A stretch of DNA of 39,630 nucleotides from Armatimonadota bacterium (GTDB taxonomy: Bacteria; Armatimonadota; Zipacnadia; Zipacnadales; UBA11051), in contig JABLXH010000043.1 of the NCBI GenBank assembly GCA_013178155.1, positions 1-39,630 of the forward strand. The letters are read 5' to 3'. Positions within the stretch are counted from its first letter, which is position 1. Every line of letters begins with the position of its first letter. A program made the translations under genes and the position numbers. The notes below the pieces were generated by a model. It was not told the DNA's origin. It saw only the letters and a list, made by a program, of their open reading frames with translations, and made no database searches. This document shows, piece after piece, positions 1 to 18,097 of this stretch.

Positions 1-885
1 TACCGGTTCGCCGCTGGCCGGGACTGGCCGGCTGTCCAGGGCCTGGGCAGGTGGCTAGGCCTCTACGGGTATCATGTGGGCTTCCGCTGGCGTCGCATCG
101 CCCTGGCCAACATCCGTTGCGCATTCGGCAACACCGTATCGGAGCAACGCGTCCGCGAGATTGCCCGGGGGGCTTTCGTCAACCTCGCCACGCTGTTCCT
201 GGAGGCCATGAAGTACTCGACGTTGCCGATAGAGGAGCAGCTTGCCCTCTGCCCCATGGAGGGTGAACATCATCTGCAGGAGGCACTGGCGCAGAAGCGA
301 GGCGTCATCAGCCTGGGTGCCCACCTCGGCAACTGGGAGCTGGGCGGCCTGCGCGCTATGGCCGGGGGCTACCCCGTGCTGCCGCTAGTGCGCATGCCAC
401 GCAGCCCTCGCATCGCCACCAAATTCAAGGAGCTTCGGGAGCGCGAGGGCTACCGGATGATTGATGTGGCGGACCAGGGCTTCCGGGGCGTAATCCGTGC
501 CCTCAACCAGAACATGGTGGTGTCCATCCTTCCCGACCGTTATGCCAAGGGCCAGGGCGTGACGGTGCCGTTTTTCGGCCAGGACACGCATGTCTGGCAG
601 ACGCCGGCGCTGGCCGCCCTCCGTACCGGAGCACCCGTGCTGCCCATATTCACCGTGCGACAGCCCGATGGGACCTTCCGCATCCGGGTCCATCCGCCGC
701 TGGAGATGCAGGAGACTGGCGACCGCGAAGCGGATTTGCTGACCAATACGGCACGCACCATGGCCGTCGTGGAAGCTCAAGTGCGGATGTACCCGGAGCA
801 GTACACCTGGACCTACGAACTGTGGCGGCCGGAACTTTCGTCCGCCCCGCAGGTCCAAACGGTCGCAGACACGGTGCCACGCTGA
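1..885 (+). CDS. LpxL/HtrB-type lysophospholipid (lipid A) acyltransferase, 5' end missing
   Basis: The reading frame is open from base 1 to a TGA at 883-885, so the start lies outside the window; 294 residues are visible. The family (LpxL/HtrB/MsbB, about 300 residues) adds a secondary acyl chain to lipid A or a related glycolipid at the inner membrane. The visible HLGNWE box near residue 109 is the family's catalytic HX4(D/E) motif. It is followed by an LPDR segment and a VPFFG motif, both typical positions in this fold. Only a short N-terminal piece, probably with the membrane anchor, seems to be missing. The next gene starts about 45 bases downstream on the same strand and is ArnT-like, which fits joint action on a lipid A-type outer-membrane lipid. 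The exact acyl donor and acceptor cannot be read from the sequence. Confidence 0.85.
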   Translation, partial: YRFAAGRDWPAVQGLGRWLGLYGYHVGFRWRRIALANIRCAFGNTVSEQRVREIARGAFVNLATLFLEAMKYSTLPIEEQLALCPMEGEHHLQEALAQKRGVISLGAHLGNWELGGLRAMAGGYPVLPLVRMPRSPRIATKFKELREREGYRMIDVADQGFRGVIRALNQNMVVSILPDRYAKGQGVTVPFFGQDTHVWQTPALAALRTGAPVLPIFTVRQPDGTFRIRVHPPLEMQETGDREADLLTNTARTMAVVEAQVRMYPEQYTWTYELWRPELSSAPQVQTVADTVPR

Positions 886-915
886 CTCCAGGCCGTTCCT
901 ACCCCCGATGAGCTC

Positions 916-921
916 AGGGGA
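916..921 (+). promoter_or_regulatory. Ribosome binding site deciding the start of the GT83 gene
   Basis: AGGGGA lies 7 bases before the ATG at 929. The upstream in-frame ATG at 908 has no purine-rich site at a useful distance, so 929 is the better start. Confidence 0.55.
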
Positions 922-928
922 AACCTTG

Positions 929-2725: not shown

Positions 2726-3698
2726 CGACGCCATTCGTCTCTCCGTGGTTATTCCTCTGTACAACGAGGAAGAGAACGTCCCGGAGCTCCTGCGGCGCCT
2801 CGACGAGACCCTGGCCACCATCCAGGGGCCGGTGGAACTGGTTCTGGTGGACGACGGTAGCCGCGACCGGACAGTGGAACAGGTGCGCGCTTTCGAGCCT
2901 CGATCCATGTCCATCGTGCTGGTCGAGCTGGCTCGCAACGCCGGCCAGCACAACGCCATTTTGGCCGGCTTCAGTCAGTGCCGCGGCCAGTACGTGGTGA
3001 CCCTGGATGCCGACCTCCAGAACCCGCCGGAGGAGATCCCCCGGGTACTGGAGCAGCTTGAGGCCGGCTATGCCGTGGTCGGGACCGTGCGCCGAGACCG
3101 CAACGACCCGTTGCCGCGCCGCCTGGCCTCAAGGGTGGTGAATAAGCTGGTCTCCCGTGCAACGGGTCACGACCTGCACGACTATGGCTGCATGTTGCGC
3201 GGCTATTCGCGGGAGACCGTGCAGGCGATGCTGGCCTGCCCGGAGCGCCATACCTTCATTCCCGCGCTGGCGATGGCGGTGGCCGGCAGCAGTACGGAGA
3301 TCGAGGTCAGTCACGCCCCGCGGGCCGCGGGCCAATCAAAATACGACCTGGGCAGACTCCTGCGCCTGAACTTTGACCTGATGATGGGCTTCACGTCTAT
3401 CCCGTTGGAGCTCGTCAGTTGTGTGGGCCTCGTCACGGCCCTGCTGGGCCTGGTCTTCTCCGTTTTCCTCATCGTGCGGCGCATCGTGCACGGCCCGGAA
3501 GTGGAGGGCGTCTTCACTCTGTTTGCTATCCTCTTCTTCTTCATCGGAGTGCAGATCCTCGCTCTGGGGCTGGTGGGTGAGTATATCGCCCGCATGTATG
3601 ATGAGATCCGGGGTCGCCCGCGGTACCTGGTACGCCGGGTCTACCGCAACGGCGGCCGCAGGCCACCCCCTGGCGTGCCTGCGGAGGGGGAGGACTGA
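2718..3698 (+). CDS. ArnC/GtrB-like family 2 glycosyltransferase acting on polyprenyl phosphate
   Basis: The product has 326 residues (E. coli ArnC has 322). The N-terminal GT-A domain begins SVVIPLYNEEENV, followed by VLVDDGSRD and TLDADLQNPPEE, which are the nucleotide-sugar and metal binding motifs of polyprenyl-phosphate glycosyltransferases. Two transmembrane segments lie near the C-terminus (about residues 230-290), followed by GLVGEYIARMYDE and a basic tail, the layout of ArnC, GtrB and DPM1-like enzymes. ArnC transfers 4-formamido-arabinose from UDP to undecaprenyl phosphate on the cytoplasmic face. The start is GTG with a GGAGG site. The formyltransferase gene begins directly after its stop codon. 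Without the neighbours this could be any GtrB-like flippase-coupled transferase; the operon makes ArnC the best reading. Confidence 0.85.
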   Translation: MADDAIRLSVVIPLYNEEENVPELLRRLDETLATIQGPVELVLVDDGSRDRTVEQVRAFEPRSMSIVLVELARNAGQHNAILAGFSQCRGQYVVTLDADLQNPPEEIPRVLEQLEAGYAVVGTVRRDRNDPLPRRLASRVVNKLVSRATGHDLHDYGCMLRGYSRETVQAMLACPERHTFIPALAMAVAGSSTEIEVSHAPRAAGQSKYDLGRLLRLNFDLMMGFTSIPLELVSCVGLVTALLGLVFSVFLIVRRIVHGPEVEGVFTLFAILFFFIGVQILALGLVGEYIARMYDEIRGRPRYLVRRVYRNGGRRPPPGVPAEGED

Positions 3699-4661
3699 GT
3701 GCGGGCCGTCGTCTTCGCTTACCACGACATCGGCTATGTCTGCCTGCGCGAACTCGTGCGCCAGGGCCATGAGGTAGTGGCTGTCTTCACCCATGAAGAT
3801 GACCCAGGGGAGGAGATCTGGTTTCGGTCCGTTCCCACGTTGGCCCGCGAACTGGGCTTGCTGACCCTTACACCGCCTGACCCGAACACGCCAGAGTACC
3901 TCGAGCTCATCCGCGGGCTGCAGCCGGACATCGGCTTCAGCTTCTACTACCGCTATATGCTCAAGGCGCCCCTGTTGGACATCCCGCCGCTGGGCTGCCT
4001 GAACCTGCACGGGTCCTATCTGCCGAAGTACCGCGGGCGTTGCCCGGTCAACTGGGTGCTGGTCAACGGCGAGACCGAGACCGGGGTTACTCTGCACTAC
4101 ATGGTCGAGAAGCCCGATGCCGGTGACATCGTCGCCCAGCGGCGTGTGCCCATCGCCTTCGAGGACACGGCGCGGACTCTCTACGCCAAGATGACGGCCA
4201 CCGCGGAGGCCCTGTTTGCTGAGACCTTGCCGCTGCTGGCGGCAGGCACCGCGCCGCGAGTGCCGATGGACCTGTCGCAGGGCAGCTACTACGGTGGGCG
4301 TCGCCCTGCTGACGGTCGGTTCGAGTGGACCTGGCCGGCTCTCCGCATCTACAACCTGGTCCGCGCTGTCACGCATCCGTACCCGGGAGCCTTCGTCGGC
4401 AGCCCGGATGGCGACCTGTTCGTCTGGTGGGCGTGCCCTGTGCCTGCGCCATCACCATCGGCAGAGACCGCCCCCGGCACGATTGTTGCTCTCACCCCCG
4501 AGGGGCCCGTAGTCATGACCGGGCAGGATTGCCTGCTCTTGCTGCAGGTCCAGCCGCCGCTGCAGCCGGAGCTCTCCGGCATCGAGTTTGCGCGTCTCCG
4601 CCGACTGGCAGTCGGCCAGAACCTGGCTGCTGACCATGAGACGGGAACAGACCCTGCATAA
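3699..4661 (+). CDS. UDP-4-amino-4-deoxy-L-arabinose formyltransferase-like protein (ArnA N-terminal half as a separate gene)
   Basis: The product has 320 residues and resembles only the N-terminal formyltransferase domain of ArnA. The first residues (VVFAYHDIG) and FTHEDDPGE match ArnA. The catalytic triad known for E. coli ArnA (Asn102, His104, Asp140) is found at the same numbers here: NLHG gives N102 and H104, and PDAGD gives D140. The SYLPKYRGR and NGETETGVTLH blocks are also present. The enzyme formylates UDP-L-Ara4N using 10-formyltetrahydrofolate. The GTG start lies next to the stop of the GT2 gene, with a GGAGG site 6 bases upstream. In enterobacteria this domain is fused to a decarboxylase; here that activity is the next gene, 12 bases downstream. 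The exact amino-sugar substrate is inferred. Confidence 0.87.
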   Translation: MRAVVFAYHDIGYVCLRELVRQGHEVVAVFTHEDDPGEEIWFRSVPTLARELGLLTLTPPDPNTPEYLELIRGLQPDIGFSFYYRYMLKAPLLDIPPLGCLNLHGSYLPKYRGRCPVNWVLVNGETETGVTLHYMVEKPDAGDIVAQRRVPIAFEDTARTLYAKMTATAEALFAETLPLLAAGTAPRVPMDLSQGSYYGGRRPADGRFEWTWPALRIYNLVRAVTHPYPGAFVGSPDGDLFVWWACPVPAPSPSAETAPGTIVALTPEGPVVMTGQDCLLLLQVQPPLQPELSGIEFARLRRLAVGQNLAADHETGTDPA

Positions 4662-4673
4662 GGAGATACTGCC

Positions 4674-5684
4674 GTGCATATACTGATCACGGGGGGGGCC
4701 GGGTTCATTGGCTCCCACCTTTGCGAAGCCTTTCTCAACCGAGGTGACCAGGTTACCTGCCTGGATATGGGTTCGCGCCGCAAGATTGAGCATCTCATGG
4801 ACCACCCGCGCTTTCGCTATGTCCATGACAGCGTGCTGAACGCTCCAATGGTGGATGCTTTGGTAACGCGAGCGGACCTGATCTACCATCTGGCCGCCGT
4901 GGTGGGCGTGGAGCACTACGTCGCGGACCCCTACAATGTGCTGAACGTGAATGTCAACGGCACCCAGGAGGTCCTGAAGGCCGCATATCGGCATGACAAG
5001 AAAGTGGTCTTCAGCTCCACCTCCGAGGTCTACGGGCGCAACCCGAAGATCCCGTGGAGCGAGGACGACGATCGCGTGCTGGGCTCCACGGCCATTGACC
5101 GCTGGTGCTACTCCACCTCGAAGGCGGTGGGCGAGCACTTCTGCCATGCCTTTGGTCGGATGGGGCTGCCGGTAGTCATCACCCGCTACTTCAACGCTTA
5201 CGGGCCGCGGTTGGATGCCCTCGACCGGGGGCGAGTCATTACCATCTTCCTCGGTCAGATCCTGGCCGGCAAGCCGGTAACAGTGGTCGGCGACGGCTCC
5301 CAGACCCGCTGTTTCACCTATATTGACGATGTCATCCGGGCCACCATGGCGGCGGGCTTGCTGGACGAGGCGGTAGGGGGTGTCTTTAACATCGGTACCG
5401 ACCGCGAGACTACCATCCGCGAACTGGCAGAGACCATGGTGAGAGTCTCCGGCACGGACACAGAAATCGTCTACGTGCCCCAGGAGTCGGTCTACGGCAG
5501 TAGCTACGAGGACATCCAGCGTCGGGTCCCTGACATCACGAGGATGCGGGAGATACTCGGTGTGTCTCCGGATACCAGTCTGGAGGACGGACTGCGGGCG
5601 ACTTACGAGTACTTCCTGGCCGAACGTAACCGTATCAGCAGCGAGCCACGCTTCCGTTCGATGGTGGAGCGGGGACGCACCTAG
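4674..5684 (+). CDS. NAD-dependent SDR-family UDP-glucuronate decarboxylase/epimerase (ArnA C-terminal half-like)
   Basis: The product is a 336-residue extended short-chain dehydrogenase. The NAD site is GGAGFIG at residues 7-13. The catalytic residues are T116, S117 and E118 in STSEVYG, then Y146 and K150 in YSTSK. The Ser-Glu pair after the catalytic Thr is used for decarboxylation by ArnA and UDP-xylose synthase. The C-terminal part (SSYEDIQRRVPDI) resembles the region of ArnA that holds its catalytic arginine. The likely reaction is oxidative decarboxylation of UDP-glucuronate to the 4-keto-pentose. The GTG start has AAGGAG upstream. A UDP-sugar 4-epimerase role is possible because STSEVYG also occurs in epimerases, but position directly after the formyltransferase favours an ArnA-like or UDP-xylose synthase-like role. 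Confidence 0.78.
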   Translation: MHILITGGAGFIGSHLCEAFLNRGDQVTCLDMGSRRKIEHLMDHPRFRYVHDSVLNAPMVDALVTRADLIYHLAAVVGVEHYVADPYNVLNVNVNGTQEVLKAAYRHDKKVVFSSTSEVYGRNPKIPWSEDDDRVLGSTAIDRWCYSTSKAVGEHFCHAFGRMGLPVVITRYFNAYGPRLDALDRGRVITIFLGQILAGKPVTVVGDGSQTRCFTYIDDVIRATMAAGLLDEAVGGVFNIGTDRETTIRELAETMVRVSGTDTEIVYVPQESVYGSSYEDIQRRVPDITRMREILGVSPDTSLEDGLRATYEYFLAERNRISSEPRFRSMVERGRT

Positions 5685-5732
5685 CCGCTAGCCAGCGAAG
5701 GGTTCATCAGAGCTGTGGCGGAATAGGGGGAC

Positions 5733-7700
5733 ATGGCCGCCTCGCGCCCGCCAGTCGAGACCGCCTACGTGGTCTGCGCGTCGCCGTCCGCGGTAACACC
5801 GCGGGCGGTCCTGTTGGGGCTGCTGGCCAGTGCCTTCGTTGGCTGGGCGTTCCCGTACGCCGAGTTCGTCATCCGTGGCACGCGCCCGGCCAACACCGCC
5901 CTGCCCTTCGGCAATATTCTCGTCTTCTTCCTCCTGGTTGGACTGCTGAACCCCCTGATCAAAGCCATCATTCACCGTCTGGCGCTGCGCCGGGGAGAGC
6001 TGCTGGTCATCTTTGTGCTCGTGCTCATCGCCTCGGCGGTGCCCAACTGGGGCATGGTGGGGCAACTCTTGCCCATCATGGCCGGGGCCACTTACTATGC
6101 CACACACGAGAATCACTGGCTGGAGACCATCCTGCCCCATGTGCCCGACTGGGTCGCGCCGAAGGACCCGCTGGTCTGCAAGTACTTCTACGAGGGCCTG
6201 CCCCCCGGCCAGGCCATCCCCTGGGGTGCCTGGCTGGCGCCTTTGGGCGGATGGGCACTCTTCCTGGTCGCCTTCTACGGCGCGACCATCGGCCTCGTAC
6301 TGCTCCTGCGTCGCCAGTGGATCGAGCAGGAGCGCCTGGTCTACCCCCTGATGCGTCTACCCCTGGAGATGGTGGAGGGGGTAGATGGCCCACACCTGCT
6401 GCCAGATCTGCTGCGCAGCAAGCTCATGTGGCTAGGCTTCCTGCTGGCCCTGGTGCCCACCAGCATCATCGCGCTGCACCACTACATACCATCGGTGCCG
6501 TTCATCCAGTTGCGCAACTCGCTGACCATTCCCGTGCAGCGCGAGCAGATCATCTTCTACCTGTGGCTCAACCCTTCGGTCATTGCCTTCAACTACCTGA
6601 TCAACACCGATCTGGCCTTCAGTCTGTGGTTCTTCGCCATTGTGACCAGCATTCAGACGCCGTTGTGGCGTTTGTGGGGCATCGGGGCCGGTGCCGCCGA
6701 AATCTACTGTGCCGGCAACCCGGCCCTCTCGAACCAGGCGATGGGCGGCATGCTGCTCATGGTTGCGATGGGGTTGCTCAACGCCCGACGTGAGGTCTCA
6801 CGAGCCTGGGTCGCCGCTGTCGGATCGGGGGAGTACGACGGAGAGCCCGCACCGGCAAGCACTGTCATGCTCTGCCTGCTGGGGGGAGTGGGCGGGATGC
6901 TGCTTTGGCTTTGGGCAGCGGGGCTTCGTCCCCTGGCCGGGGTCGTGTTCCTTGTGGGTGCCTTTGTCACGTTTCTGGCCTTGACGCGAGCCACGGTCCA
7001 GGGCGGCGTGCCGGTCTCCCGTGCCGCTCTGATCCCTCAGTCCTTCGTGGCCCATGCGCTGGGCACGCGCTTCATCGGCCCAGCCGGCACGGTCGCGCTC
7101 GGCTACAGCTTCGTCTGGTCCGCCGACATCCGGGTCATCATGATGACCTTCTTTGCCCACGCACTCAAGCTCTGGGGAGAGTTGCGGTCCATGGGTCGAC
7201 GCTTGCTGCCTCTGGCCGTGGCCGCCATCGTGCTGGCGGGAGTGGTTAATGCCGTGTATATTCTCTTCCTGGCCTACACCCGGGGAGGTGTCAATCTCGG
7301 CGGTTGGCTCTTCAGCGGCTGCCCGCGTTCGGCTTTCAGCTACGCGGCCATGCAGCTCGCCGATCCCGTGACGCCCAGTCCGGGCCGATGGCTGTGGCTG
7401 CTGGTCGGCGCAGTGCTGATGTACGGTCTTACCGTCATGCACTACCAGTGCGCCTGGTGGCCACTGCATCCACTGGGCTTCGCCATCGCGCCGACTCAGC
7501 CCGTGCAAGACCTGTGGTTCTCGGGCTTCTGGGGTTGGCTGGTCAAGGTGGTCGTGATGCGGTATGGGGGCTACCGCGCCTACTCGGTCGGGGTCCAGTT
7601 CTTTATGGGCGTCATCCTGGGCCAGTTCATCGGCTCTTCGCTATGGCTGGTCATTGACGCCATCATGGGCTCCACCGGCAACATGATTTACGTATATTGA
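5733..7700 (+). CDS. DUF6785/DUF6784-like polytopic membrane protein
   Basis: The product has 655 residues and about 14 hydrophobic segments spread over its whole length, with cytoplasmic or periplasmic loops rich in Trp and Pro. I recognise the general pattern of the DUF6785 family: an early VPNWGMVGQLLP segment, LLRRQWIEQERLVYPL, and a C-terminal HPLGFAIAPTQPVQDLWFSGFWGW block. This family is common in Armatimonadota and Planctomycetes and loosely resembles oligopeptide transporters. No substrate is known. The ATG follows an AGGGGGA tract with short spacing. It lies 48 bases downstream of the Arn-like genes on the same strand and may be co-transcribed, but nothing links it biochemically. 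The family call is from memory of the pattern, not a search. Confidence 0.65.
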   Translation: MAASRPPVETAYVVCASPSAVTPRAVLLGLLASAFVGWAFPYAEFVIRGTRPANTALPFGNILVFFLLVGLLNPLIKAIIHRLALRRGELLVIFVLVLIASAVPNWGMVGQLLPIMAGATYYATHENHWLETILPHVPDWVAPKDPLVCKYFYEGLPPGQAIPWGAWLAPLGGWALFLVAFYGATIGLVLLLRRQWIEQERLVYPLMRLPLEMVEGVDGPHLLPDLLRSKLMWLGFLLALVPTSIIALHHYIPSVPFIQLRNSLTIPVQREQIIFYLWLNPSVIAFNYLINTDLAFSLWFFAIVTSIQTPLWRLWGIGAGAAEIYCAGNPALSNQAMGGMLLMVAMGLLNARREVSRAWVAAVGSGEYDGEPAPASTVMLCLLGGVGGMLLWLWAAGLRPLAGVVFLVGAFVTFLALTRATVQGGVPVSRAALIPQSFVAHALGTRFIGPAGTVALGYSFVWSADIRVIMMTFFAHALKLWGELRSMGRRLLPLAVAAIVLAGVVNAVYILFLAYTRGGVNLGGWLFSGCPRSAFSYAAMQLADPVTPSPGRWLWLLVGAVLMYGLTVMHYQCAWWPLHPLGFAIAPTQPVQDLWFSGFWGWLVKVVVMRYGGYRAYSVGVQFFMGVILGQFIGSSLWLVIDAIMGSTGNMIYVY

Positions 7701-7730
7701 GGCCCGGCCCCCGTCGCGAGCCGGTGGGTA

Positions 7731-7747
7731 CGGCGGCAGAGCCGCTG
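7731..7747. terminator. GC-rich hairpin between convergent genes, possible terminator
   Basis: CGGCGGC and GCCGCTG flank an AGA loop, giving a stem of seven pairs including one G-U. It lies between the convergent membrane protein gene and the glucokinase gene. No T-tract follows on either strand, so it is not a classic intrinsic terminator. Confidence 0.3.
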
Positions 7748-7754
7748 GCCCAAG

Positions 7755-8531
7755 CTAGACACGGATGTACCGGCAGTCATCGGGCAGCGCGCCCGCAGCC
7801 AGTTGGCGGGCCGCCAAAGCGGCGCCGATGATCCCCGCCTCGTTGCGGAGCTCCGCTATCCGGATTTCCGCCCGCGTGCTCAGCAGTGGCAGGAACTGCT
7901 CCGCCTTGTTGGCGACCCCGCCGCCGATGATGAAGAGATCCGGCCAGAACAGCGCATCCATGCGCTGGATGTACTCATTCACACGCTTGGCCCATCCCGC
8001 CCATGTCAGGCCCTTGCGCTTGCGGGTGCCGTCGGATGCCCGCTGCTCCCCTTCCTTGCCCCGGATCTCCATGTGCCCCAGTTCGGTGTTCGGCAGCAAC
8101 TGGCGGTTGACGAAGATGGCCGTGCCGATGCCGGTGCCGAAGGTCAGCATGATGACCACGCCATCATGTCCCTTCCCGGCCCCAAACTCCATCTCGGCAA
8201 TCCCCGCGGCATCAGCATCGTTGAGCACCAGCGCCGGGCAGCCGGTCTTGGCGCGGGTAAGCTCCGCCACATTGGTGCCGATCCAGGACTTGTCCACATT
8301 GGCCGCCGTGCAAGCCGTTCCGGCCTTGATGACCGCCGGAAAAGTCACGCCCACCGGGCCGGTCCAGTCGAAATGGCGCGCAATCTGCGCCAGCACGTCG
8401 CCAACTGCGTCGGGCAGCGAGGGGTCAGGGGTCGGAATGCGGTGCCGGGTCGTCACCAACTGCCCCTCGTTGGTGTCCACTGGAGCCCCCTTGATACCGG
8501 AACCGCCTATGTCTATGCCCAGAACCTGCAT
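7755..8531 (-). CDS. ppgK: Polyphosphate glucokinase (ROK family)
   Basis: The product has 258 residues, typical for strictly polyphosphate-dependent glucokinases (about 250-270). The N-terminal phosphate-binding loop reads [11 protein letters not shown]. The conserved [28 protein letters not shown] and ELGH-E blocks follow, and [11 protein letters not shown] lies near the C-terminus. These match actinobacterial PpgK closely. The enzyme phosphorylates glucose in the cytoplasm using inorganic polyphosphate, with ATP as a possible second donor. The ATG at 8531 is followed directly by the conserved [10 protein letters not shown]. The gene stands alone, divergent from the VOC gene. Glucose released by the secreted glycosidases elsewhere in the window could be its substrate, which is inference. 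Confidence 0.93.
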
Positions 8532-9117: not shown

Positions 9118-10242
9118 TCAGGTCTCGCCCTGGCTGAACCCGGGGTTCCGCAGCTCTCCCACCGCCTCCACCATAGCCCGGTAGTTCTCGGGCGGGATCG
9201 GGGGGTTGATCTCACTCGAGGAGGCGACCATCATGCCGCCGGTCCGCAGGGCGTCCGTCTCCTGAATATGGCGGCGCACCTCCGCTCGCACCTGTTCGGG
9301 CGTGCCGCGCTCCATCAGGTCCACGCCGTCCACGCCTCCCGCCCAGACCATCGCAGGCCAGGTGCGTTTCAGGTCCACAATGTCCATCCCCACCCCCGGC
9401 TCCAGGCAGTAGAAGCCGTCCACCCCGCACGCCATCAGGTCGGGAATGGCCTTGCGGTAGTTGCCATCACTGTGGTAGATAACCGCGATGCCATGCTCGT
9501 GCCAGGCCCTCGTCAGTTCTCTCACAAAGGGGTACAGGTAGCGGTGCAGGAAGGCCGGCGGGAAGATGGGACCTTGCTTGGTGGCGAAATCCTCCGGGAT
9601 CAGGATGACCGGCGACAACGCCCGGTCCCCCACAGCCCGCACACGACGCAGCTCGTGGGCGCAGGAGACGTGCATGAAATCATCGAGCGTCTCGGGATAG
9701 TCCGCGCTGAAATAGGTGTACAGCTCCAGCCCCATCGCGTCGAAGACGGCGCAGAAACTGACCTGGCTGAAGTTGATCAGCACCGTCTCGCCGATAAGGG
9801 CCTGCGTCGCCTGGACGTCCTCGCGATACCGCCGCCGGGCCCCATTGGGGTCGAAGTCTTCGTTCCGCAGGCGGTCCATCCAGGTCAGTAACCAGCGGCG
9901 GGCACCGGCCACATCGTCAAAGGGGCGACCTACCCGCCAGGTGGTCCAGTTGTCGTGCTGATAGACGAAGCCGTCGGGGCTGGTGACCCGTGCCGTCCCG
10001 CAGGGCGCTGTGGGTGGAAAGCAGGTGTCCAGAGACCGCTGGATGGCCAGGCCTATCTCTTCCAGGCCGTAGTTGAACCCCGACACAGGCTTGTGGGTCC
10101 AGTCGGCAATGACGCGGGGGTTGTAGCTGAGCTGCTCGTGCAGGCACACACGGTCCACCGGCTGGTGGGCAAGGGTCCGCTCCAGCCGCTCGCGCTTGCT
10201 CAGCACATCGGTCGGGAAGATACGCTCCATGCCGGTAGCCAT
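9118..10242 (-). CDS. Uroporphyrinogen decarboxylase (URO-D)-like family protein
   Basis: The product has 374 residues from the chosen ATG at 10242. The open frame reaches a GTG at 10368, which would overlap the MoeB-like gene; its extra 42 residues look non-conserved, and an ATG at 10230 is also possible. No start has a clear ribosome binding site. The KRERLERTLAHQPVDRV segment and the later IYHSDGNYRKAIPDL block are typical of the URO-D superfamily branch that includes corrinoid methyltransferases. Such proteins bind a tetrapyrrole or transfer methyl groups through a TIM-barrel; true HemE signature loops are not evident. It is the last gene of the Mo/W-associated group, 97 bases after the MoeB-like gene, so co-transcription is possible but not certain. 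Confidence 0.72.
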   Translation of the reverse strand: MATGMERIFPTDVLSKRERLERTLAHQPVDRVCLHEQLSYNPRVIADWTHKPVSGFNYGLEEIGLAIQRSLDTCFPPTAPCGTARVTSPDGFVYQHDNWTTWRVGRPFDDVAGARRWLLTWMDRLRNEDFDPNGARRRYREDVQATQALIGETVLINFSQVSFCAVFDAMGLELYTYFSADYPETLDDFMHVSCAHELRRVRAVGDRALSPVILIPEDFATKQGPIFPPAFLHRYLYPFVRELTRAWHEHGIAVIYHSDGNYRKAIPDLMACGVDGFYCLEPGVGMDIVDLKRTWPAMVWAGGVDGVDLMERGTPEQVRAEVRRHIQETDALRTGGMMVASSSEINPPIPPENYRAMVEAVGELRNPGFSQGET

Positions 10243-10339
10243 CTGCGGAAAGGTGGCTGCATGTTCGCTAATGGCAGTTGGAGACCTGCCGGGATCAGCG
10301 GAGAAGCACCAGGAGCAGCATAGCGCGGTTTGCAGGGGG

Positions 10340-11089
10340 TCAGGCCCCACAGACCGCGCAGTCGGCACGCCTCGGTACTCTGATGGTCCGCAGCTCGTAG
10401 TCCCAGACCTCCACTTGCAGCAGGCCCTGCGGCAGGCATTCCGGCTGACCCGTCAGCAGTTGGAGTACCTGTGACATCTGCAGCGAGGCCACGGTGTTGA
10501 CGCTGGGACCGATGACCCCGGCGGTGGCCGCGGTCTCGGACGAAGCCTTGTCCGGTTCGGCGCAGTAGAGGCAGCAAAGACACGCCGTCTCGCCAGGCCG
10601 CACGGCCATGGTCAGGCCATAGGAGCCCGACAAGGCCGCATAGACCATCGGGATGCCCAGGGTGATGGCCGCCTGATTCATGGCGAACTTGGCCGCGAAG
10701 TTGTCCACGCCGTCTACTATGACGTCCACACCCTCCACGAGCTGGGCAGCGTTGTCGGCTCCGATCTTGGCGATTACCGGCTCGATGACGATCTCGGAGT
10801 TGATGCGGCTCAGGCGCTCAGCGGCGATCTCACACTTGGGCCGGGTCTGAAGGTCACCCTCCTCGTAGAGGGTCTGGCGCTGCAGATTCGACAGCTCAAG
10901 GCAGTCAAAGTCCACGAGACGGATGTAGCCGACACCGGCGCGAGCAAGCATCTCGGCCGTCGCCGCGCCAATGGCCCCACAGCCGCAGACTACCACCCGG
11001 CTGTCCAGCAGCCGCGCCTGTCCAGGGGCTCCCAGAGGGCGAAAGAGTATCTGGCGCTCATACCGCGCCAGTTGGTGTTCAGTGAGCAT
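10340..11089 (-). CDS. MoeB/ThiF/HesA-type E1-like adenylyltransferase (canonical copy)
   Basis: The product has 249 residues. E1-like enzymes adenylate the C-terminus of a small ubiquitin-fold sulfur carrier. The glycine-rich loop is GCGAIG. The ATP-binding segment VDFDCLELSNLQRQ keeps both acidic residues, the Asn and the Arg, and DGVDNF supplies the Asp that is essential in MoeB. A Lys follows the Thr-Arg-Pro segment as expected. Two zinc-binding pairs are present: CLCC around residue 190 and CAVC at the C-terminus. The gene begins 11 bases after the MoaD-like gene ends, and the pair should act together. MoaD activation for molybdopterin is the likely role; thiamine or cysteine pathways cannot be excluded. 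Confidence 0.85.
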   Translation of the reverse strand: MLTEHQLARYERQILFRPLGAPGQARLLDSRVVVCGCGAIGAATAEMLARAGVGYIRLVDFDCLELSNLQRQTLYEEGDLQTRPKCEIAAERLSRINSEIVIEPVIAKIGADNAAQLVEGVDVIVDGVDNFAAKFAMNQAAITLGIPMVYAALSGSYGLTMAVRPGETACLCCLYCAEPDKASSETAATAGVIGPSVNTVASLQMSQVLQLLTGQPECLPQGLLQVEVWDYELRTIRVPRRADCAVCGA

Positions 11090-11100
11090 AATGGGCTCCT

Positions 11101-11376
11101 TCAGGCCCCCGCAACGGGGGGGACAATGGAAATGACATCGTCCGCCGCAAGAGGCGTCGCCAGGCCCTGGGCGTCGGCGATATCCCGCTCGCCCACGAAC
11201 ACGCGGACAAAGGGCTTCAGCTCGCCGGGTGCCGCGAAGAGAGCGTCGGCAATCGCCGGGTAGGCACTCACCAGGGCCTCCAGGGCGGCGCCGACCGTGT
11301 CGGCCTGGACCTCGGCGGACTTGGCGCCGTCGGCGTGACGGCGCAGGGGAGTGGGGAGCTTGACAGTGACCGGCAT
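11101..11376 (-). CDS. MoaD/ThiS-family ubiquitin-fold sulfur carrier ending in Gly-Ala
   Basis: The product has 91 residues, the usual size for MoaD. The N-terminal strand (TVKLPTPLRR), the ELKPFVRVFVGERDI segment and the terminal block ISIVPPVAGA follow the MoaD pattern, in which the tail is normally PPVxGG. In this family the final Gly is adenylated by MoeB and turned into a thiocarboxylate that donates sulfur to molybdopterin or tungstopterin. Here the last codon is GCC (Ala), directly followed by TGA, so the chain ends GA rather than GG. The GGAGG site 7 bases before ATG is strong. The gene lies between two E1-like genes in a Mo/W transport operon. Confidence 0.82.
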   Translation of the reverse strand: MPVTVKLPTPLRRHADGAKSAEVQADTVGAALEALVSAYPAIADALFAAPGELKPFVRVFVGERDIADAQGLATPLAADDVISIVPPVAGA

Positions 11377-11451: not shown

Positions 11452-12195
11452 CTAGCCCGTCCCGCAGACCGGGCAGTCTGGGCGGCGGTGGAGGGTGTAC
11501 TTGCTGAAGCTCATGTCCTCGGCGTCGAAGATCAGCAGCTTGCCGGTGAGCGGCTCGCCGTAGCCGGTCAGGACCTTGATGGCTTCAAGAGCTGTCAGCG
11601 CGCCCAGAGCCCCCGGTACGGCGCCCAGTACGCCAAACCCCAGGGGATCCCACCACTCTGGCACCTCCGGCACCAGACACTGCAGGCAGGGCGTGTCGGG
11701 CGGCACGATGGCCGTGAGTTGGGCTTCCATACCGTTCATACCGCTGTCAATCAGCGGCTTGCCCTGCCGCCAACACTCACGGTTCAGCACCAGACGCTCG
11801 CGGAAGTCCGGGGTCGTGTCACAGACGATGTCCACCTGGCTGACCCACTCGGCGGCATTCTCCTCGCTGGCGTCAGCCGCGTAAGCAATGATCTCCAGTT
11901 CAGGGTTGAAGCGTCGGAGGGTCTCCTCCGCCTGAGGGGCGCGCGGCTGACCCACGCCGTCGCCGCGCATCAGAATCTGGCGGTTGAGGTTAGATGGCGT
12001 CAGCTTGCCGCCGTGGGCGATAACCAGTTTGCCGATGCCGGCGGCGGCCAGCCACAACGCGGTTGGCCCCCCCAGGCCACCCAGACGGGTCACGAGGGCG
12101 CTGGAGGCCCGCAGCTTCTCCTGGGCTTCCACTCCAAAGCCGGGGATCATGATCTGGCGCTTGTACTTCTCGAGTTCCCAGTCAGTCAGCGGCAC
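11452..12195 (-). CDS. ThiF/HesA-like E1-family protein with altered nucleotide-binding segment
   Basis: The product has 247 residues. The E1-like fold is clear from YKRQIMIPGFG, the glycine-rich RLGGLGG loop, SNLNRQ, and two CxxC zinc pairs (CLQC and CPVC). The strand that normally reads (V/L)DxDxVxxSNLxRQ is IAHGGKLTPSNLNRQ here, so the usual acidic residue is lost, and the expected GxPK lysine is Arg (GQPR). An Asp corresponding to the MoeB catalytic residue may remain in TTPDFRE. It may be a specialised or weakly active partner of the MoaD-like carrier. The GTG at 12195 is chosen because GGAGG lies 6 bases upstream; a GTG at 12213 would overlap the ModC stop codon. Confidence 0.78.
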   Translation of the reverse strand: MPLTDWELEKYKRQIMIPGFGVEAQEKLRASSALVTRLGGLGGPTALWLAAAGIGKLVIAHGGKLTPSNLNRQILMRGDGVGQPRAPQAEETLRRFNPELEIIAYAADASEENAAEWVSQVDIVCDTTPDFRERLVLNRECWRQGKPLIDSGMNGMEAQLTAIVPPDTPCLQCLVPEVPEWWDPLGFGVLGAVPGALGALTALEAIKVLTGYGEPLTGKLLIFDAEDMSFSKYTLHRRPDCPVCGTG

Positions 12196-12202
12196 CGCAT
12201 GA

Positions 12203-12207
12203 CCTCC
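12203..12207 (-). promoter_or_regulatory. Ribosome binding site deciding the start of the HesA-like gene
   Basis: GGAGG on the minus strand ends 7 bases before the GTG at 12195 and lies too close to the GTG at 12213 to serve it, so it selects the shorter product. Confidence 0.55.
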
Positions 12208-12209
12208 GT

Positions 12210-13268
12210 TCACTTGTAGACCCTGAGCGCAGACGCCTTGAAGGAGGCGTAGACGTTGGCCCCGATCTTGAGCCCCAGACGCTCTTCCGAGGCGTGGGTC
12301 ACCTCGGCGACCATGGCCACGCCATTTTCCACCGTCACCCGCGTGCGCCCGCCGAGATGGGCGATGGAGGTGATCCGCCCGAACAGCGTGTTCAGCGAAG
12401 AGTCGTCAGGTTGTTGTAGAGATAACGTAACGTCCCAGGGATGGCAGGTGACCTGCACCGCGCCAGTCTCCTGCTCGACGGTATAGAAATGATGGGAGCC
12501 GCAGCGCACCAGTGACAGGCCATCGGGGCCGGGACTGGCTTCGCCCTGAAGCAGGTTCACGCCCAGGAACTCGGCAACGAAGGGCGTGCGCGGCTGAGCC
12601 AGCAGCTCGTGCCGGGTACCCAACTGCACGATCCGCCCCTCATGCATCACCCCGATCCGGTCGCCGAGTGTAAGCGCGTCGGCCACATCGTGGGTAACAA
12701 CCACGGTCTGGAGATTAAGGTCATGGATGACCTCAAGCACCTCGCCACGCACTTGACGTCGCGTCACCGGGTCAAGAGCGGACATCGGCTCGTCCATGAG
12801 CAGGACTCGGGCGCCACTGGCCAGGGCCCGAGCGAGCGCCACGCGCTGCTGTTGCCCTCCCGATAGCTGACGGGGGTAGAGTGACTCTAGGCCGTCCAGC
12901 CGTGCCCGGTGGAGGGTCTGACGTGCCCGCGCTTCGGCCTCGCGGCGCGAAGCGCCCCGGGCCTGAGCACCGTACATCACGTTGCCCAGTACCGTCAGGT
13001 GTGGGAAGAGGGCGTAATCCTGGAACATCACTCCCACGCGACGTTTCTGCGCGGGGACGGAAAGCCCGGCCGCCGTGTCCACCAGAGTCTCGCCATCCAT
13101 GACGATGCGCCCCGCATCGGGCTGCAGCAGCCCCGCCAGCAGGCGGAGAGTGGTTGTCTTGCCGCAGCCGGTGGGGCCGACGAGGGCCAGGCACTGGCCA
13201 CTGGCCAGTTCGAACTCCACCTGCAGAGGGAAGTCTCTGAGCTGTTTGCTGAGTGAAACCGAGATCAT
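12210..13268 (-). CDS. Molybdate/tungstate-type ABC transporter ATP-binding protein with TOBE domain (ModC/WtpC-like)
   Basis: The product has 352 residues. Residues 1-240 form an ABC ATPase: Walker A GPTGCGKTT, Q-loop in MFQDYALFPH, signature LSGGQQQR, Walker B VLLMDEPMSALD and switch VVTHD. The last roughly 110 residues form a TOBE-like domain, used in ModC to sense oxyanions or regulate transport. The ATG at 13268 overlaps the permease stop by 4 bases (ATGA), so the two are translationally coupled. A much longer open frame to 13916 runs antisense-free through the permease gene in another frame and is not real. Co-encoded MoaD- and MoeB-like genes favour molybdate or tungstate over sulfate or iron. 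Confidence 0.88.
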   Translation of the reverse strand: MISVSLSKQLRDFPLQVEFELASGQCLALVGPTGCGKTTTLRLLAGLLQPDAGRIVMDGETLVDTAAGLSVPAQKRRVGVMFQDYALFPHLTVLGNVMYGAQARGASRREAEARARQTLHRARLDGLESLYPRQLSGGQQQRVALARALASGARVLLMDEPMSALDPVTRRQVRGEVLEVIHDLNLQTVVVTHDVADALTLGDRIGVMHEGRIVQLGTRHELLAQPRTPFVAEFLGVNLLQGEASPGPDGLSLVRCGSHHFYTVEQETGAVQVTCHPWDVTLSLQQPDDSSLNTLFGRITSIAHLGGRTRVTVENGVAMVAEVTHASEERLGLKIGANVYASFKASALRVYK

Positions 13269-14114: not shown

Positions 14115-14954
14115 TCACGGCTTGGCTGGCGGGGCCTCGGTCGTGTAGCCGTGCTCTTTCCATACGCTCTTGGCTTCTTCAGAGGCCAGGAAGTCAATGA
14201 ACTCCCTGGCAGCGTCAGGCTGTTTGGACCACTTGATCACGGCTCCAGGGATGTTGCGAGGCCGCGCCGACTTGGCCTTCAGTGGTATGCTCTCCAGCTT
14301 GTCGGGGTGCTGGCGGGTGAAAACGTCCCAACCGATGACAACGTCGGCCTCCCCCATCAGCAAGCTCTGCAGCACAGCCTCACAGCTTGTTCCGTAGTCG
14401 GCCAGGCGAGGCTGGAGGTCCTGCCACACCCCTTCTTCCTCCAGTACTGCCTGGGCGATGTCTCCCAGGCACACAGTCACCGGCTTGCCAATGACCACAC
14501 GCAGGCCTTCGCGCGTAAGGTCCTTCACGCTCTTGATGCCCTTTGGGTTGCCCTTGGGCACGTTGATGACCGGTACCAGGTAGACAAGAACGGTGCGGGT
14601 CTCCTTCAGCACCGCGTCCTTCTTCTCGGCCTTGTCCATGAAATCGTCAGAGCCGGGAACGTAGACATCGCCGAACTGCTCCTGGGCGAACTGGTTCAGC
14701 ACCGCTCCCGATCCGCCGTAGGTGATCTCAACCTTCACCCCCGTCCGTTCCTCGTAGCGCCTGGCCAGGGGGTCCAGGCCCGGTTTCGGGGCAGCTCCAG
14801 CAAAGACTGTAAGGGTACGGTCAGGTTCGGGGGCCATGGCCTTGGTGACGGGCGCTTGCTGCCCCGTCTCCGGCTGAGCCTTCGGAGAACAACCGGACAG
14901 CACAAGCGCAAGGGACAGCAGCGGGGCCATACCCAGGACGATCAGCCGTGTCAT
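14115..14954 (-). CDS. Substrate-binding lipoprotein of the Mo/W-type ABC transporter (ModA-like)
   Basis: The product has 279 residues. A signal sequence ends in the lipobox LSGC near residue 22, so the protein is a membrane-anchored lipoprotein. The mature part begins LTVFAGAAPKPGLDPLARRYEERTG and continues with YGGSGAVLNQ and GDVYVPGSDDFMDKA, the layout of periplasmic oxyanion-binding proteins of the ModA superfamily. A C-terminal FIDFLASEEAKSVWKEHGY segment is typical. It is the first gene of the minus-strand group ModA-ModB-ModC-HesA-MoaD-MoeB. A GGAGG site lies 12 bases upstream of the ATG, slightly far. Molybdate or tungstate is the expected ligand from the neighbours; the sequence alone does not decide. 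Confidence 0.82.
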   Translation of the reverse strand: MTRLIVLGMAPLLSLALVLSGCSPKAQPETGQQAPVTKAMAPEPDRTLTVFAGAAPKPGLDPLARRYEERTGVKVEITYGGSGAVLNQFAQEQFGDVYVPGSDDFMDKAEKKDAVLKETRTVLVYLVPVINVPKGNPKGIKSVKDLTREGLRVVIGKPVTVCLGDIAQAVLEEEGVWQDLQPRLADYGTSCEAVLQSLLMGEADVVIGWDVFTRQHPDKLESIPLKAKSARPRNIPGAVIKWSKQPDAAREFIDFLASEEAKSVWKEHGYTTEAPPAKP

Positions 14955-15116: not shown

Positions 15117-15863
15117 TTACTCGCCGGGGTACCCGGGTACCGGCGGCGGACAGCCCGGCTCCCGGAACAGGCCGACGCGCAGCGCTGTTGGCCGCAGCCA
15201 CTTCACGTGACCGTCATGGTAGAGGAAGTTGCCACCGCCGTGATGGCGCAGGGGATAGTGCAGCTCCGACTCGGGGTCACCGGCAAAGGGCACGAAGGGC
15301 GGATGGCCGCCGTCCCCGGGGGCTGCGGCGCCGGCACAACCGGGCGTGCGGCAATGGTCCCACACGACGACGCGCTGCGCGGGATCACTGACCAGGGCGT
15401 CGGGCATGCCGGTGATGAGCGGATAGCGCCGTGGGTCAGCGTGGGGAGAGCCATTGACATATGACAGGGCATAGCTGCACTGCCACTCTGGCGCCGCAGG
15501 GCACTTGAACAGGGCTGCACTGCCGACATAGGGAAAGAGCAGCCCCGGCTGCCAGTTGGGCCCGGGGCGGGCGTTCGGGGCCACCGATGGATCGTACGGA
15601 GCCCACCAGACGTCGGGTGGGTAGAAGCCAGTGGGTTCCGGGTCGGGTACGGGACACTGCCGGCACGGGCAGTTGACCTCGTCGTGGTCCGCCCGGTACA
15701 TTGCCAACGCCACGCCGATTTGCTTGAGATTCGACTGGCACGCGGTCTGGCGGGCCTTGTCGCGGGCCCGTGCCAGCACCGGAAAGAGCATGCCCGCCAA
15801 CACGGAGATGATGGCGATCACGACCAGCAACTCGACGAGAGTGAAGCCATCGGTGCGAGACAC
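15117..15863 (-). CDS. Type II secretion/type IV pilin-like pseudopilin with DUF1559-type C-terminal domain
   Basis: The product has 248 residues from a GTG at 15863. The leader SRTDG precedes [34 protein letters not shown], written here only as its key parts: cleavage after Gly, Glu at mature position 5, then the long hydrophobic helix. The C-terminal part has [12 protein letters not shown], the H-x-DGH-x-K-W motif typical of DUF1559/prepilin-like proteins in Armatimonadota and Planctomycetes. An unusual Cys-rich stretch (CPCRQCP) follows the helix. The open frame extends to an ATG at 15956 without a ribosome binding site and would bury the leader. It lacks any secretion genes nearby and may be a substrate or minor subunit of machinery encoded elsewhere. 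Confidence 0.82.
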
Positions 15864-15995
15864 GGGCCGCCCAGACCTTGTGCCAGCTTGACCTATCACA
15901 CTGATTAGACGTCTGGGCGCTGGGACCTGGTTTCCCGACCGCTCCCCTTGCGGCATATTTCGGGAATCTGTGCGAGATCATATTGGCGCAATCCG

Positions 15996-16071: not shown

Positions 16072-16359
16072 GTGGGCATCCCGGTGACAGTCAGAGTGCT
16101 GCTAGCCAACCCGACCGCCCCGTCGCCCGAAGGCGAGCGGGCCCTGCAGCACGCGCGGGCCGCGGCCCGGCGGTTCGGGGACGCGGCCGAGGTGCAGCCA
16201 GTGGCTCTTGACGACCCGGCGGTGCGGATGCTGAGCATCGGCGTGGAGCCCACCGTGCTGGTGGGAGACCTGGCCATCGCCGTCGGGATCGCCCCGCCGG
16301 CAGGGCATCTGGTGCGTGCCATCGAGCGCGCCCTGGCGAAGGAAGAGAAGCATGACTGA
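16072..16359 (+). CDS. Small cysteine-free thioredoxin-fold-like protein
   Basis: The product has 95 residues and contains no cysteine. Its first strand (VTVRVLLANP) is followed, where thioredoxin-fold proteins carry CxxC, by PTAPSPEG. Near residue 60 it has VEPTVLVGDLAIAVG, resembling the cis-proline and following strand of thioredoxin-like folds, and it ends in a helix (HLVRAIERAL). It is similar along its length to the C-terminal half of the next protein (PPFLVVGNLIVAMG, then VAQLIEKQL), so the two appear to be paralogues. The GTG start has AGGAG 9 bases upstream. It overlaps the next gene by 8 bases. Without cysteines it cannot do thiol exchange; a scaffold or binding role is more likely. 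Function is not known. Confidence 0.72.
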   Translation: MGIPVTVRVLLANPTAPSPEGERALQHARAAARRFGDAAEVQPVALDDPAVRMLSIGVEPTVLVGDLAIAVGIAPPAGHLVRAIERALAKEEKHD

Positions 16360-16876
16360 GGCCTTGAGCGAGGTCCGGGCCCCGCAGTATGACCGCGACA
16401 GCGGCTGTGAACCGATGCTGCTGTTCTGGTATGCGCAGCCCGGCGACACGGTGGTCGAAGGTCAGGACCTTTGCGAGATCGAGACCGCCAAGGCCGTGGT
16501 CGTAATCACCGCTCCGTGTGGGGGAGTGCTGGAGGAGATACTGGTTGGCGAGAGTCAGCCGGTGGAATCGGAGCAGCTACTGGCCCGTATCCGCCCTGCT
16601 GCGGAAGCGGCGCCGTCAGGCCGTGTCAAGGTCACACTCATTGGGGCGCCCAAGAAGTGCGCCAAGTGTGTGGCTTGTGAGGAGTTGATCGCGCGCCTGC
16701 AGGAACGTTTCCCGGGAGTGATTGATTTCCATCAGCATACCACCGACGACGCCGAAGCTGCGGAGTTTGGGGTGGTGATGCCGCCGTTCCTGGTCGTGGG
16801 CAACCTCATTGTCGCCATGGGGGCGGTGCCCGAGGAGGACAAGGTGGCCCAACTCATCGAGAAACAGCTGGGGTGA
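16352..16876 (+). CDS. Fusion of an E2-type lipoyl domain to a CxxCxxC thioredoxin-like domain
   Basis: The product has 174 residues. Residues about 8-82 form a lipoyl/biotinyl domain: WYAQPGDTVVEGQDLCEIETAKA, then APCGGVLEEILV and LLARI. The lysine in ETAKA (K47) sits where E2 subunits carry lipoate (ETDKA); it is not the biotin motif MKM. Residues about 92-174 form a thioredoxin-like fold with CAKCVAC (C103, C106, C109) after the first strand and a Pro-Pro before FLVVGNLIVAMG, a cis-proline-like position. Extra cysteines lie at residues 19, 41 and 56. The ATG overlaps the upstream gene by 8 bases and is preceded by GGAAGAG; the longer in-frame start at 16316 is inside that gene. The cysteine desulfurase starts 3 bases downstream. 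This suggests a swinging lipoyl arm serving a thiol or persulfide relay. Confidence 0.82.
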   Translation: MTEALSEVRAPQYDRDSGCEPMLLFWYAQPGDTVVEGQDLCEIETAKAVVVITAPCGGVLEEILVGESQPVESEQLLARIRPAAEAAPSGRVKVTLIGAPKKCAKCVACEELIARLQERFPGVIDFHQHTTDDAEAAEFGVVMPPFLVVGNLIVAMGAVPEEDKVAQLIEKQLG

Positions 16877-16879
16877 GGT

Positions 16880-18097
16880 ATGGCCATCTACCTGGATCAT
16901 AATGCCACCACGCCGCTGCGCCGCGAAGTCTGGGACGCCATGTCGGCGGTCGAGTTTGGGCCCGAGAAACGGGGCAATGCCTCCAGCGTGCATCGGGTCG
17001 GCGTCGGGACCCAACAGCACATCGCACGGGCCCGGGAGGCCGTAGCGGCGGCGTTGGGCGCCAGTCCCGACGAGATCGTCTTCACTGGTGGCGGCAGCGA
17101 GGCTATCAACCTGGCCTTGAAGGGAGCCTTCTGGGGTGCCGGCCGGACCGATGCGCACCTGGTCTCAACTACGGTCGAGCACCACGCCGTACACCATGCG
17201 CTGGACTGGCTGGAGCGCCGGGGGGCGAGCGTGAGCCTCTGTCCCGTGGACACCACGGGGCGGGTGGACCCGGAGTCAGTGGCCGAGGCCATCAGGCCAG
17301 ACACACTGCTGGTGTCCGTCATGCTGGTCAACAACGAGGTGGGCACGATCCAGCCGGTGGCCGAGATCGGCGCCATCTGCCGCGAGCGCGGCGTGATGCT
17401 GCACGTGGATGCCGTGCAGGGGGTAGGCAAACTGCCGGTGAGGGTGGACGAACTGCAGTGTGACCTGCTCAGCCTGTCAGCCCACAAGATCCAGGGGCCG
17501 CAGGGTGTGGGTGCGCTGTACGTCCGCCGAGGCACGCGGTTGGAGCCGCTGGTGCACGGAGGGCCGCAGGAGGGGCGACTGCGAGCGGGGACCGAAAACG
17601 TCGCGGGCATCGTGGGCCTCGGCGAGGCGTTGCGCCTGGCTGAAGCTGAGCGCGAGGGCAACTGGGCCCGGTGGCGGGACCTGCGGGAGATACTCTACCG
17701 TCTGCCCCGGGAGTTGGATGCCGTACGCGTCAACTCGCACCCCGACCTGACGCTACCAAACTGCGTCAACATGACCTTCATGTTCTGTGACGGTATGGCC
17801 CTGACCATGAACCTCAGCCTGCGCGGCATCTGCGTCTCCACTGGTTCGGCCTGTACAGCCGGCGACCTGACGCCATCACGTGTGCTGAAGGCCATGGGAC
17901 TGTCGGACAGGGCGGCGCACGGCGCCATCCGCTTCTCCATGGGCCGCGAGACGACGGCCGAGGAGCTGGAGACGACGGTGGCCGTCACCAGGGAGATCGT
18001 CGAGAGCCTGCGCCTGGTGACCAAGCCCGAGGACATCGGCAAGTGCAAGGACGACTGCCCGTGCTTCCTGACCGGCGGGCGACAAGCGGCCACCTGA
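16880..18097 (+). CDS. NifS/IscS-type cysteine desulfurase with cysteine-rich C-terminal tail
   Basis: The product has 405 residues, a fold-type I PLP enzyme that removes sulfur from cysteine as a protein-bound persulfide. It starts with the classic YLDHNATTP. EHHAV carries the PLP-stacking His, the PLP lysine is K203 in SAHKIQGPQG, RAGTENV is conserved, and the catalytic Cys is C325 in STGSACTAG, typical of group I desulfurases. Beyond the usual C-terminus is a tail with CKDDCPC (C389, C393, C395). The ATG lies 3 bases after the stop of the lipoyl-thioredoxin gene, with a purine-rich GTGAGGT in front. No IscU, IscR or Suf gene is nearby, so a role outside general Fe-S assembly, using the lipoyl-thioredoxin protein as sulfur acceptor, is plausible. 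Confidence 0.92.
   Translation: MAIYLDHNATTPLRREVWDAMSAVEFGPEKRGNASSVHRVGVGTQQHIARAREAVAAALGASPDEIVFTGGGSEAINLALKGAFWGAGRTDAHLVSTTVEHHAVHHALDWLERRGASVSLCPVDTTGRVDPESVAEAIRPDTLLVSVMLVNNEVGTIQPVAEIGAICRERGVMLHVDAVQGVGKLPVRVDELQCDLLSLSAHKIQGPQGVGALYVRRGTRLEPLVHGGPQEGRLRAGTENVAGIVGLGEALRLAEAEREGNWARWRDLREILYRLPRELDAVRVNSHPDLTLPNCVNMTFMFCDGMALTMNLSLRGICVSTGSACTAGDLTPSRVLKAMGLSDRAAHGAIRFSMGRETTAEELETTVAVTREIVESLRLVTKPEDIGKCKDDCPCFLTGGRQAAT

Follow-up and report, generated by a model that had tools for sequence, protein, structure and literature searches.

A lipoyl-thioredoxin-desulfurase gene set in a putative metalloid locus of uncultured Armatimonadota

Lipoate is known from 2-oxoacid and glycine metabolism and, more recently, from sulfur oxidation, where the LbpA lipoate-binding proteins of the sHdr pathway, which are GcvH-like and carry extra conserved cysteines, are encoded with Hdr-like subunits and dedicated ligases (PMC6067878). 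Three other kinds of system are relevant here: the SAO (Sec-assisted organometallic) system (Haft and Gwadz 2023, as reported in PMC13188914), with predicted thiophilic-element handling, which combines an ABC importer having a Cys/Sec-bearing substrate-binding protein with the SaoE efflux permease and the thioredoxin-like SaoT; the arsenic gene clusters (arsM, arsP, MIP/aqpS, arsR); and the MoaD/MoeB and SAMP/UbaA thiocarboxylate carriers, in which an E1-like enzyme and a small carrier are charged from a cysteine desulfurase. Here we describe a locus that shares some features with each of these. In some uncultured Armatimonadota bacteria, a swinging-arm lipoyl domain of the type normally found in energy metabolism is present in a conserved gene set with a dedicated cysteine desulfurase, sulfur-carrier proteins and transporters that look built for a sulfur-loving element such as arsenic, which points to a putative, undescribed sulfur/metalloid pathway inferred from sequence alone.

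The locus was found in a window of 39,630 nucleotides (the whole stretch of DNA that was analysed; Armatimonadota bacterium, contig JABLXH010000043.1 of assembly GCA_013178155.1). An earlier note had drawn attention to three compact genes, encoding a thioredoxin-like protein, a lipoyl-thioredoxin fusion and a group I cysteine desulfurase, and this observation was confirmed: the three ORFs lie on the same strand in one tight run, and both Pfam matches of the middle product, an E2-type lipoyl domain joined to a CxxCxxC thioredoxin domain, are above cut-off. The note had itself named, among others, two outcomes that would have spoken against it, a lysine lying outside the lipoyl-lysine turn and a gene order unique to this genome, and neither was found: in the model of the 90-residue lipoyl domain, K47 lies in the turn between strands 38-43 and 48-52 of a barrel-sandwich domain, and the gene set recurs in other families of the phylum, which excludes chance. 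Fold comparison gave Z scores of 11-13 to both lipoyl and biotinyl domains, and the lipoyl identity therefore rests on sequence context. The same model places C19 in the loop between the first two strands, a loop that in canonical E2 lipoyl domains lies near the lipoyl-lysine. The first protein is predicted to have a thioredoxin fold (Z about 9-11 to thioredoxins) but contains no cysteine at all, so it cannot itself be a redox or sulfur-transferring thioredoxin, and that idea was rejected. The third protein has the aminotransferase class V fold with the PLP-lysine (SAHK) and the catalytic Cys (GSAC) of the group I (NifS/IscS) desulfurases, yet it scores below the curated equivalog cut-offs of both families (438 bits versus 531 for NifS, TIGR03402; 355 versus 643 for IscS). 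Promoter and terminator scans returned nothing. The features of the locus, and those of related loci (L numbers) and genomes (G numbers) referred to below, are collected in the following table.

Features of the window and of related Armatimonadota loci, with the supporting evidence
Location	Strand	Feature	Evidence
16072..16359	+	Trx0, cysteine-free thioredoxin-fold protein (predicted), 95 aa, GTG start	No Pfam hit; AlphaFold pLDDT 93.8; seven-member family
16352..16876	+	Lipoyl (E2-type)-thioredoxin fusion, 174 aa from ATG 16352, overlapping the previous stop	PF00364 Biotin_lipoyl E 1.5e-13; PF13192 Thioredoxin_3 E 6.5e-7; lipoyl model pLDDT 92; subfamily alignment
16406..16408	+	C19, Cys in the beta1-beta2 loop	Invariant in 10/10 members of the lipoyl subfamily; 0/13 canonical E2 lipoyl domains from the same phylum
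16490..16492	+	K47, predicted lipoyl-lysine (ETAKA)	Aligned with the lipoyl-lysine of solved (PDB) E2 domains; hairpin turn of the model
16658..16678	+	CxxCxxC (C103, C106, C109) of the thioredoxin domain	First two Cys invariant in relatives, third present only in the closest ones
16880..18097	+	NifS-type cysteine desulfurase, tail-bearing clade, 405 aa	TIGR03402 438 bits; tail clade support 100/99
17852..17854	+	C325, catalytic (persulfide) cysteine in GSAC	Sequence motif
18044..18064	+	C-terminal tail Cys cluster CKDDCPC (C389, C393, C395; CxxxCPC)	9 of 10 lipoyl-subfamily genomes versus 5 of 281 others
15117-15956		DUF1559/N-methylation pseudopilin-like gene between the divergent halves of the locus	
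14115..14954	-	ModA-like lipoprotein (substrate-binding), C162 and C191 in the ligand loops	TIGR01256 98 bits (cut-off 62.5); alignment to solved ModA; the only two Cys beyond the lipobox; both conserved in L070 and L066
13265..14089	-	ModB-like permease	TIGR01581 204 bits, just under cut-off 210
12210..13241	-	ModC-like ATPase	PF00005 E 5.7e-35; TOBE domain
11452..12213	-	ThiF1, MoeB/ThiF-type E1-like adenylyltransferase	PF00899; 83% identical to ThiF1 of G023, which lies in the same operon as NifS
11101..11376	-	MoaD/SAMP1-like carrier; reads like a thiocarboxylate carrier	NF041918 60.6 bits, cut-off 60
10340..11089	-	ThiF2, second ThiF-type adenylyltransferase	PF00899 E 1.6e-67
9118..10368	-	URO-D/MtaA-like protein overlapping ThiF2; membership of the system uncertain	PF01208 E 5.1e-15; MtaA/CmuA models weak
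L163 (G290:C266) 594-7884		Tail-NifS operon without a lipoyl gene: CobW-like GTPase, MIP, Trx, NifS, ModB, ModC, ThiF1, MoaD, ChrA	
L028 7997-9007 and L104 4890-5927		Weakly BioB-like radical SAM proteins beside the lipoyl or DGC genes	30% identical to each other
L031 5863-7035		Transglutaminase-like protein inserted between the lipoyl and thioredoxin genes of G047	
L031 4352-5602		Aquaporin fused to the cysteine-free Trx0 domain	
L026 2445-5858		Divergent cysteine synthase, Rrf2-like regulator, HcyBio (DUF39) and NIL-ferredoxin genes beside the G023 operon (sulfur assimilation next door)	
G033:C8:2652-2852		Fragment of the lipoyl subfamily; possible decayed copy	In-frame stops near a contig end

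The genome to which the window belongs (G000, 95.6% complete) encodes LipA and one LplA/LipB-type lipoate/octanoate transferase, the latter beside GcvH. Its other PF00364 hits correspond to a biotin carrier (EAMKL), a second carrier-like protein and HlyD-type proteins, so that GcvH and the window protein are the only lipoyl candidates found, and no other E2-type lipoyl domain was found in the genome. The window's clade differs from canonical E2 domains in that the Asp preceding the lipoyl-lysine is Ala (AKA); this Asp matters for E1 recognition more than for lipoylation. A profile search with the subfamily across 291 Armatimonadota genomes identified 10 genomes in 9 families, with scores of 62-154 bits, plus the fragment in G033, all clearly separate from the E2 proteins, which score 54 bits or less. 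The lipoyl and thioredoxin domains are fused in the window, fused in reverse order in G034 and encoded by separate genes elsewhere. The named relatives are Armatimonadota and Candidatus Zipacnadia, and are all MAGs. A search of viral contigs found nothing, and a scan of genome contigs in which only the patterns of one clade were used, and which therefore says little about other phyla, found close relatives only in Armatimonadota; the two weak hits were a stand-alone lipoyl-like protein in Spirochaetales (L034) and an unclear hit in Rhodospirillales (L035), both with unrelated neighbours.

The desulfurase also seems to be dedicated to this gene set. When the tail motif was scanned in the 291 genomes, 14 were found to have it, namely 9 of the 10 lipoyl genomes and 5 of the other 281 (G290, G101, G102, G104 and G254; Fisher p 5e-13, not corrected for relatedness). 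The exception among the lipoyl genomes is G034, which is 80% complete and in which no tail-bearing NifS was found. In a tree with the other NifS copies of the same genomes, the nine tail proteins form one group, distinct from the housekeeping copies; G000 has a separate tail-less NifS. Within the tail clade the window copy groups with those of G047, which belongs to another class, and G023, which hints at horizontal transfer.

A larger locus emerges from the comparison with the relatives. The minus strand of the window holds ModA-ModB-ModC-ThiF1-MoaD-ThiF2 and the URO-D-like gene, divergent from the three genes, while in G023 these genes follow NifS directly, in one operon: NifS-ModB-ModC-ThiF1-MoaD-ThiF2. 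G047 has NifS-ModB-ModC-ThiF1-ChrA, G253 has ThiF1-NifS-ModB, and G290 has MIP-Trx-NifS-ModB-ModC-ThiF1-MoaD-ChrA without a lipoyl gene, an arrangement that may show the core of the system. The two halves of the window are therefore most likely one system, in which the lipoyl protein is a frequent but not obligatory part: the five genomes with a tail-bearing NifS but without this lipoyl subfamily indicate that the arm is dispensable for the core. MoaE is missing from G000, G023, G047 and G290, so the MoaD/SAMP1-like carrier is not for molybdopterin synthase. No dihydrolipoamide dehydrogenase or thioredoxin reductase lies in the locus.

Several features of the locus and of its relatives suggest a thiophilic metalloid, although this identity rests on homology and cysteine placement only: (i) the two cysteines of the ModA-like protein lie in loops that align with ligand loops of solved ModA, and other binding proteins of the cluster carry VPC[GA] plus a second Cys. 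(ii) Relatives add DGC pairs, MIP (aquaporin), an ArsP_1/SaoE-like permease and MerR-thioredoxin regulators with three cysteines (PCW[EQ]I[RK]HC...C), and an ArsR gene lies next to NifS in G288; G000 itself keeps its DGC-DGC-MIP genes on another contig. (iii) In four genomes (G046, G045, G288 and G249) an ArsM-like methyltransferase abuts the lipoyl gene. These methyltransferases (loci L067, L068, L069 and L070) score 118 bits at best against NF040538, whose cut-off is 500, the one in L067 being fused to a glutaredoxin-like UXX-star domain; PDB sequence searches gave no useful template for the ArsM-like protein, and no ArsM-like gene was found in G000. The radical SAM gene present in G034 and G249 resembles BioB only weakly, and a role in LipS-type lipoate synthesis, or another role, is merely possible.

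Taken together, these data lead us to propose, tentatively, that the three genes are the sulfur-mobilising arm of a larger conserved locus that most likely handles a thiophilic, arsenic-like metalloid in Armatimonadota. In this view NifS would take sulfur from cysteine onto C325, as is standard for the family; the persulfide would then move to the CxxxCPC tail or to the CxxC site of the thioredoxin domain, and the dihydrolipoyl arm on K47, with C19 beside it, would accept or reduce it, a step for which there is precedent, since dihydrolipoate is a known acceptor of sulfane sulfur (PMC6067878). The sulfur would be delivered, as a thiocarboxylate, to the MoaD/SAMP1-like carrier activated by ThiF1/ThiF2, an inference supported by gene order, and would be used on, or to cap, the element brought in by the Mod-like ABC importer with its two-cysteine binding protein. 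What our analysis establishes is the domains, the position of the lipoyl-lysine, the invariant extra Cys, the dedicated NifS clade, the NifS-Mod-ThiF-MoaD operon in relatives and the absence of MoaE; lipoylation, the flow of sulfur and the substrate are inferred. The interpretation offered in the earlier note, a lipoyl-linked sulfur or redox relay, is thus supported only in part. It was right in placing an E2-type lipoyl domain next to a dedicated desulfurase, and the MoaD-like group, which it had raised only as a speculative sulfur user, is contiguous with this NifS in relatives. However, it had not seen the larger locus, which points to a thiophilic metalloid rather than to a general sulfur relay, nor the invariant extra Cys of the lipoyl domain, the absence of MoaE or a relative (G290) that lacks the lipoyl protein; its path for the sulfur remains an inference, and its first gene encodes no cysteine.

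The main alternative, which we consider possible but less likely, is that the lipoyl arm carries the metalloid rather than sulfur: the dihydrolipoyl dithiol plus C19 would hold a trivalent element (of the arsenite or methylarsenite type) as a three-thiol adduct and shuttle it between binding protein, thioredoxin, methyltransferase and permease, while NifS would supply sulfide for a separate step. Vicinal dithiols such as dihydrolipoate are classical ligands of trivalent arsenic, and the invariant Cys, the ArsM-like methyltransferase abutting the lipoyl gene in four genomes, and the ArsP_1 permease and MIP neighbours are all in line with this idea. In contrast, the ArsM-like neighbour is missing from the window's own clade and genome, and the idea, put forward without metal-binding data, does not by itself explain the NifS-ThiF-MoaD operon. 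It is also unlikely, though not excluded, that the domain is unmodified, or biotinylated, and works only as a scaffold joining NifS and thioredoxin. Fold alone does not separate the two types of domain and the AKA context is unusual, but K47-Ala is invariant in all 10 members, the motif is E[TS][AD]KA rather than MKM, the lipoate machinery is present and a typical biotin carrier is a separate gene.

Two more conventional readings seem very unlikely. The matches to ModA/B/C, MoeB/ThiF and MoaD would fit an ordinary molybdenum-cofactor or thiamine sulfur supply, with ModABC bringing molybdate and NifS with ThiF/MoeB charging MoaD; nevertheless, MoaE is absent from G000 and from eight relatives tested, including G023, G047 and G290, although the same search finds it in 11 of 14 control genomes, the binding protein has Cys in the molybdate loops, and this reading does not explain the lipoyl domain, the DGC pair or the aquaporin. 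In the same way, the E2-type sequence and the presence of LipA, GcvH and a lipoate/octanoate transferase would be compatible with service to a conventional 2-oxoacid dehydrogenase or to the glycine cleavage system encoded elsewhere, in an incidental neighbourhood. However, GcvH is encoded separately, the window protein has no catalytic domain, no other E2-type lipoyl domain was found in the genome, the Asp before the lysine is replaced in the window's clade, and the linkage to NifS and to the metalloid genes recurs across families.

The boldest possibility, which we regard as unlikely, is a new kind of sulfur-delivery machine, in which a lipoyl swinging arm with an adjacent protein thiol carries persulfide (or a thiolated metalloid) between a dedicated desulfurase and a thiocarboxylate carrier that thiolates an imported metalloid, that is, the enzymatic thiolation of arsenic-like elements. 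More generally, a conserved lipoyl carrier tied to a cysteine desulfurase and a MoaD-type carrier would add a third use of lipoate, and suggests how a cell could make or handle thiolated metalloids enzymatically. It also gives concrete, testable partners to several families without assigned roles: the DGC proteins, the tail-bearing NifS and the Cys-liganded ModA homologues.

Our literature searches gave no described system with this composition, and each of the nearest known systems either fails at least one defining feature tested or leaves key genes unexplained. As occurs with LbpA, a free-standing lipoyl protein with an extra conserved Cys would serve sulfur rather than 2-oxoacid chemistry; here, however, the domain is E2-type, matching PF00364 and not PF01597, it is linked to NifS, thioredoxin, ThiF and MoaD, the genome has LipA, and no Hdr-like subunits were seen among the neighbouring genes read. 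With SAO the locus and its relatives share an ABC importer with a Cys-bearing binding protein, a SaoE-like permease, a thioredoxin-like protein and the predicted handling of a thiophilic element, but the SAO models match well below cut-off (SaoA 162 bits versus 360, SaoE 67-79 versus 325, SaoT only 21 bits and in one relative), no selenoprotein, SaoL or SaoC was seen, and SAO, in the account available to us, is not described with a lipoyl domain, a tail-bearing NifS, ThiF or MoaD. MIP, ArsP_1 permease, ArsR/MerR regulators and ArsM-like methyltransferase are present in relatives, as in arsenic gene clusters, whereas ArsM, ArsP and ArsR were not seen in the window; a dedicated desulfurase, a thiocarboxylate carrier, a lipoyl-thioredoxin and a Mod-like importer have not, as far as a limited literature search shows, been described as part of ars operons. 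Finally, the locus resembles the MoaD/MoeB and SAMP/UbaA systems in pairing an E1-like enzyme and a small carrier with a cysteine desulfurase, but it differs from them in having two ThiF genes and no MoaE, and in being coupled to an importer with a putatively Cys-liganded binding protein and to a lipoyl-thioredoxin.
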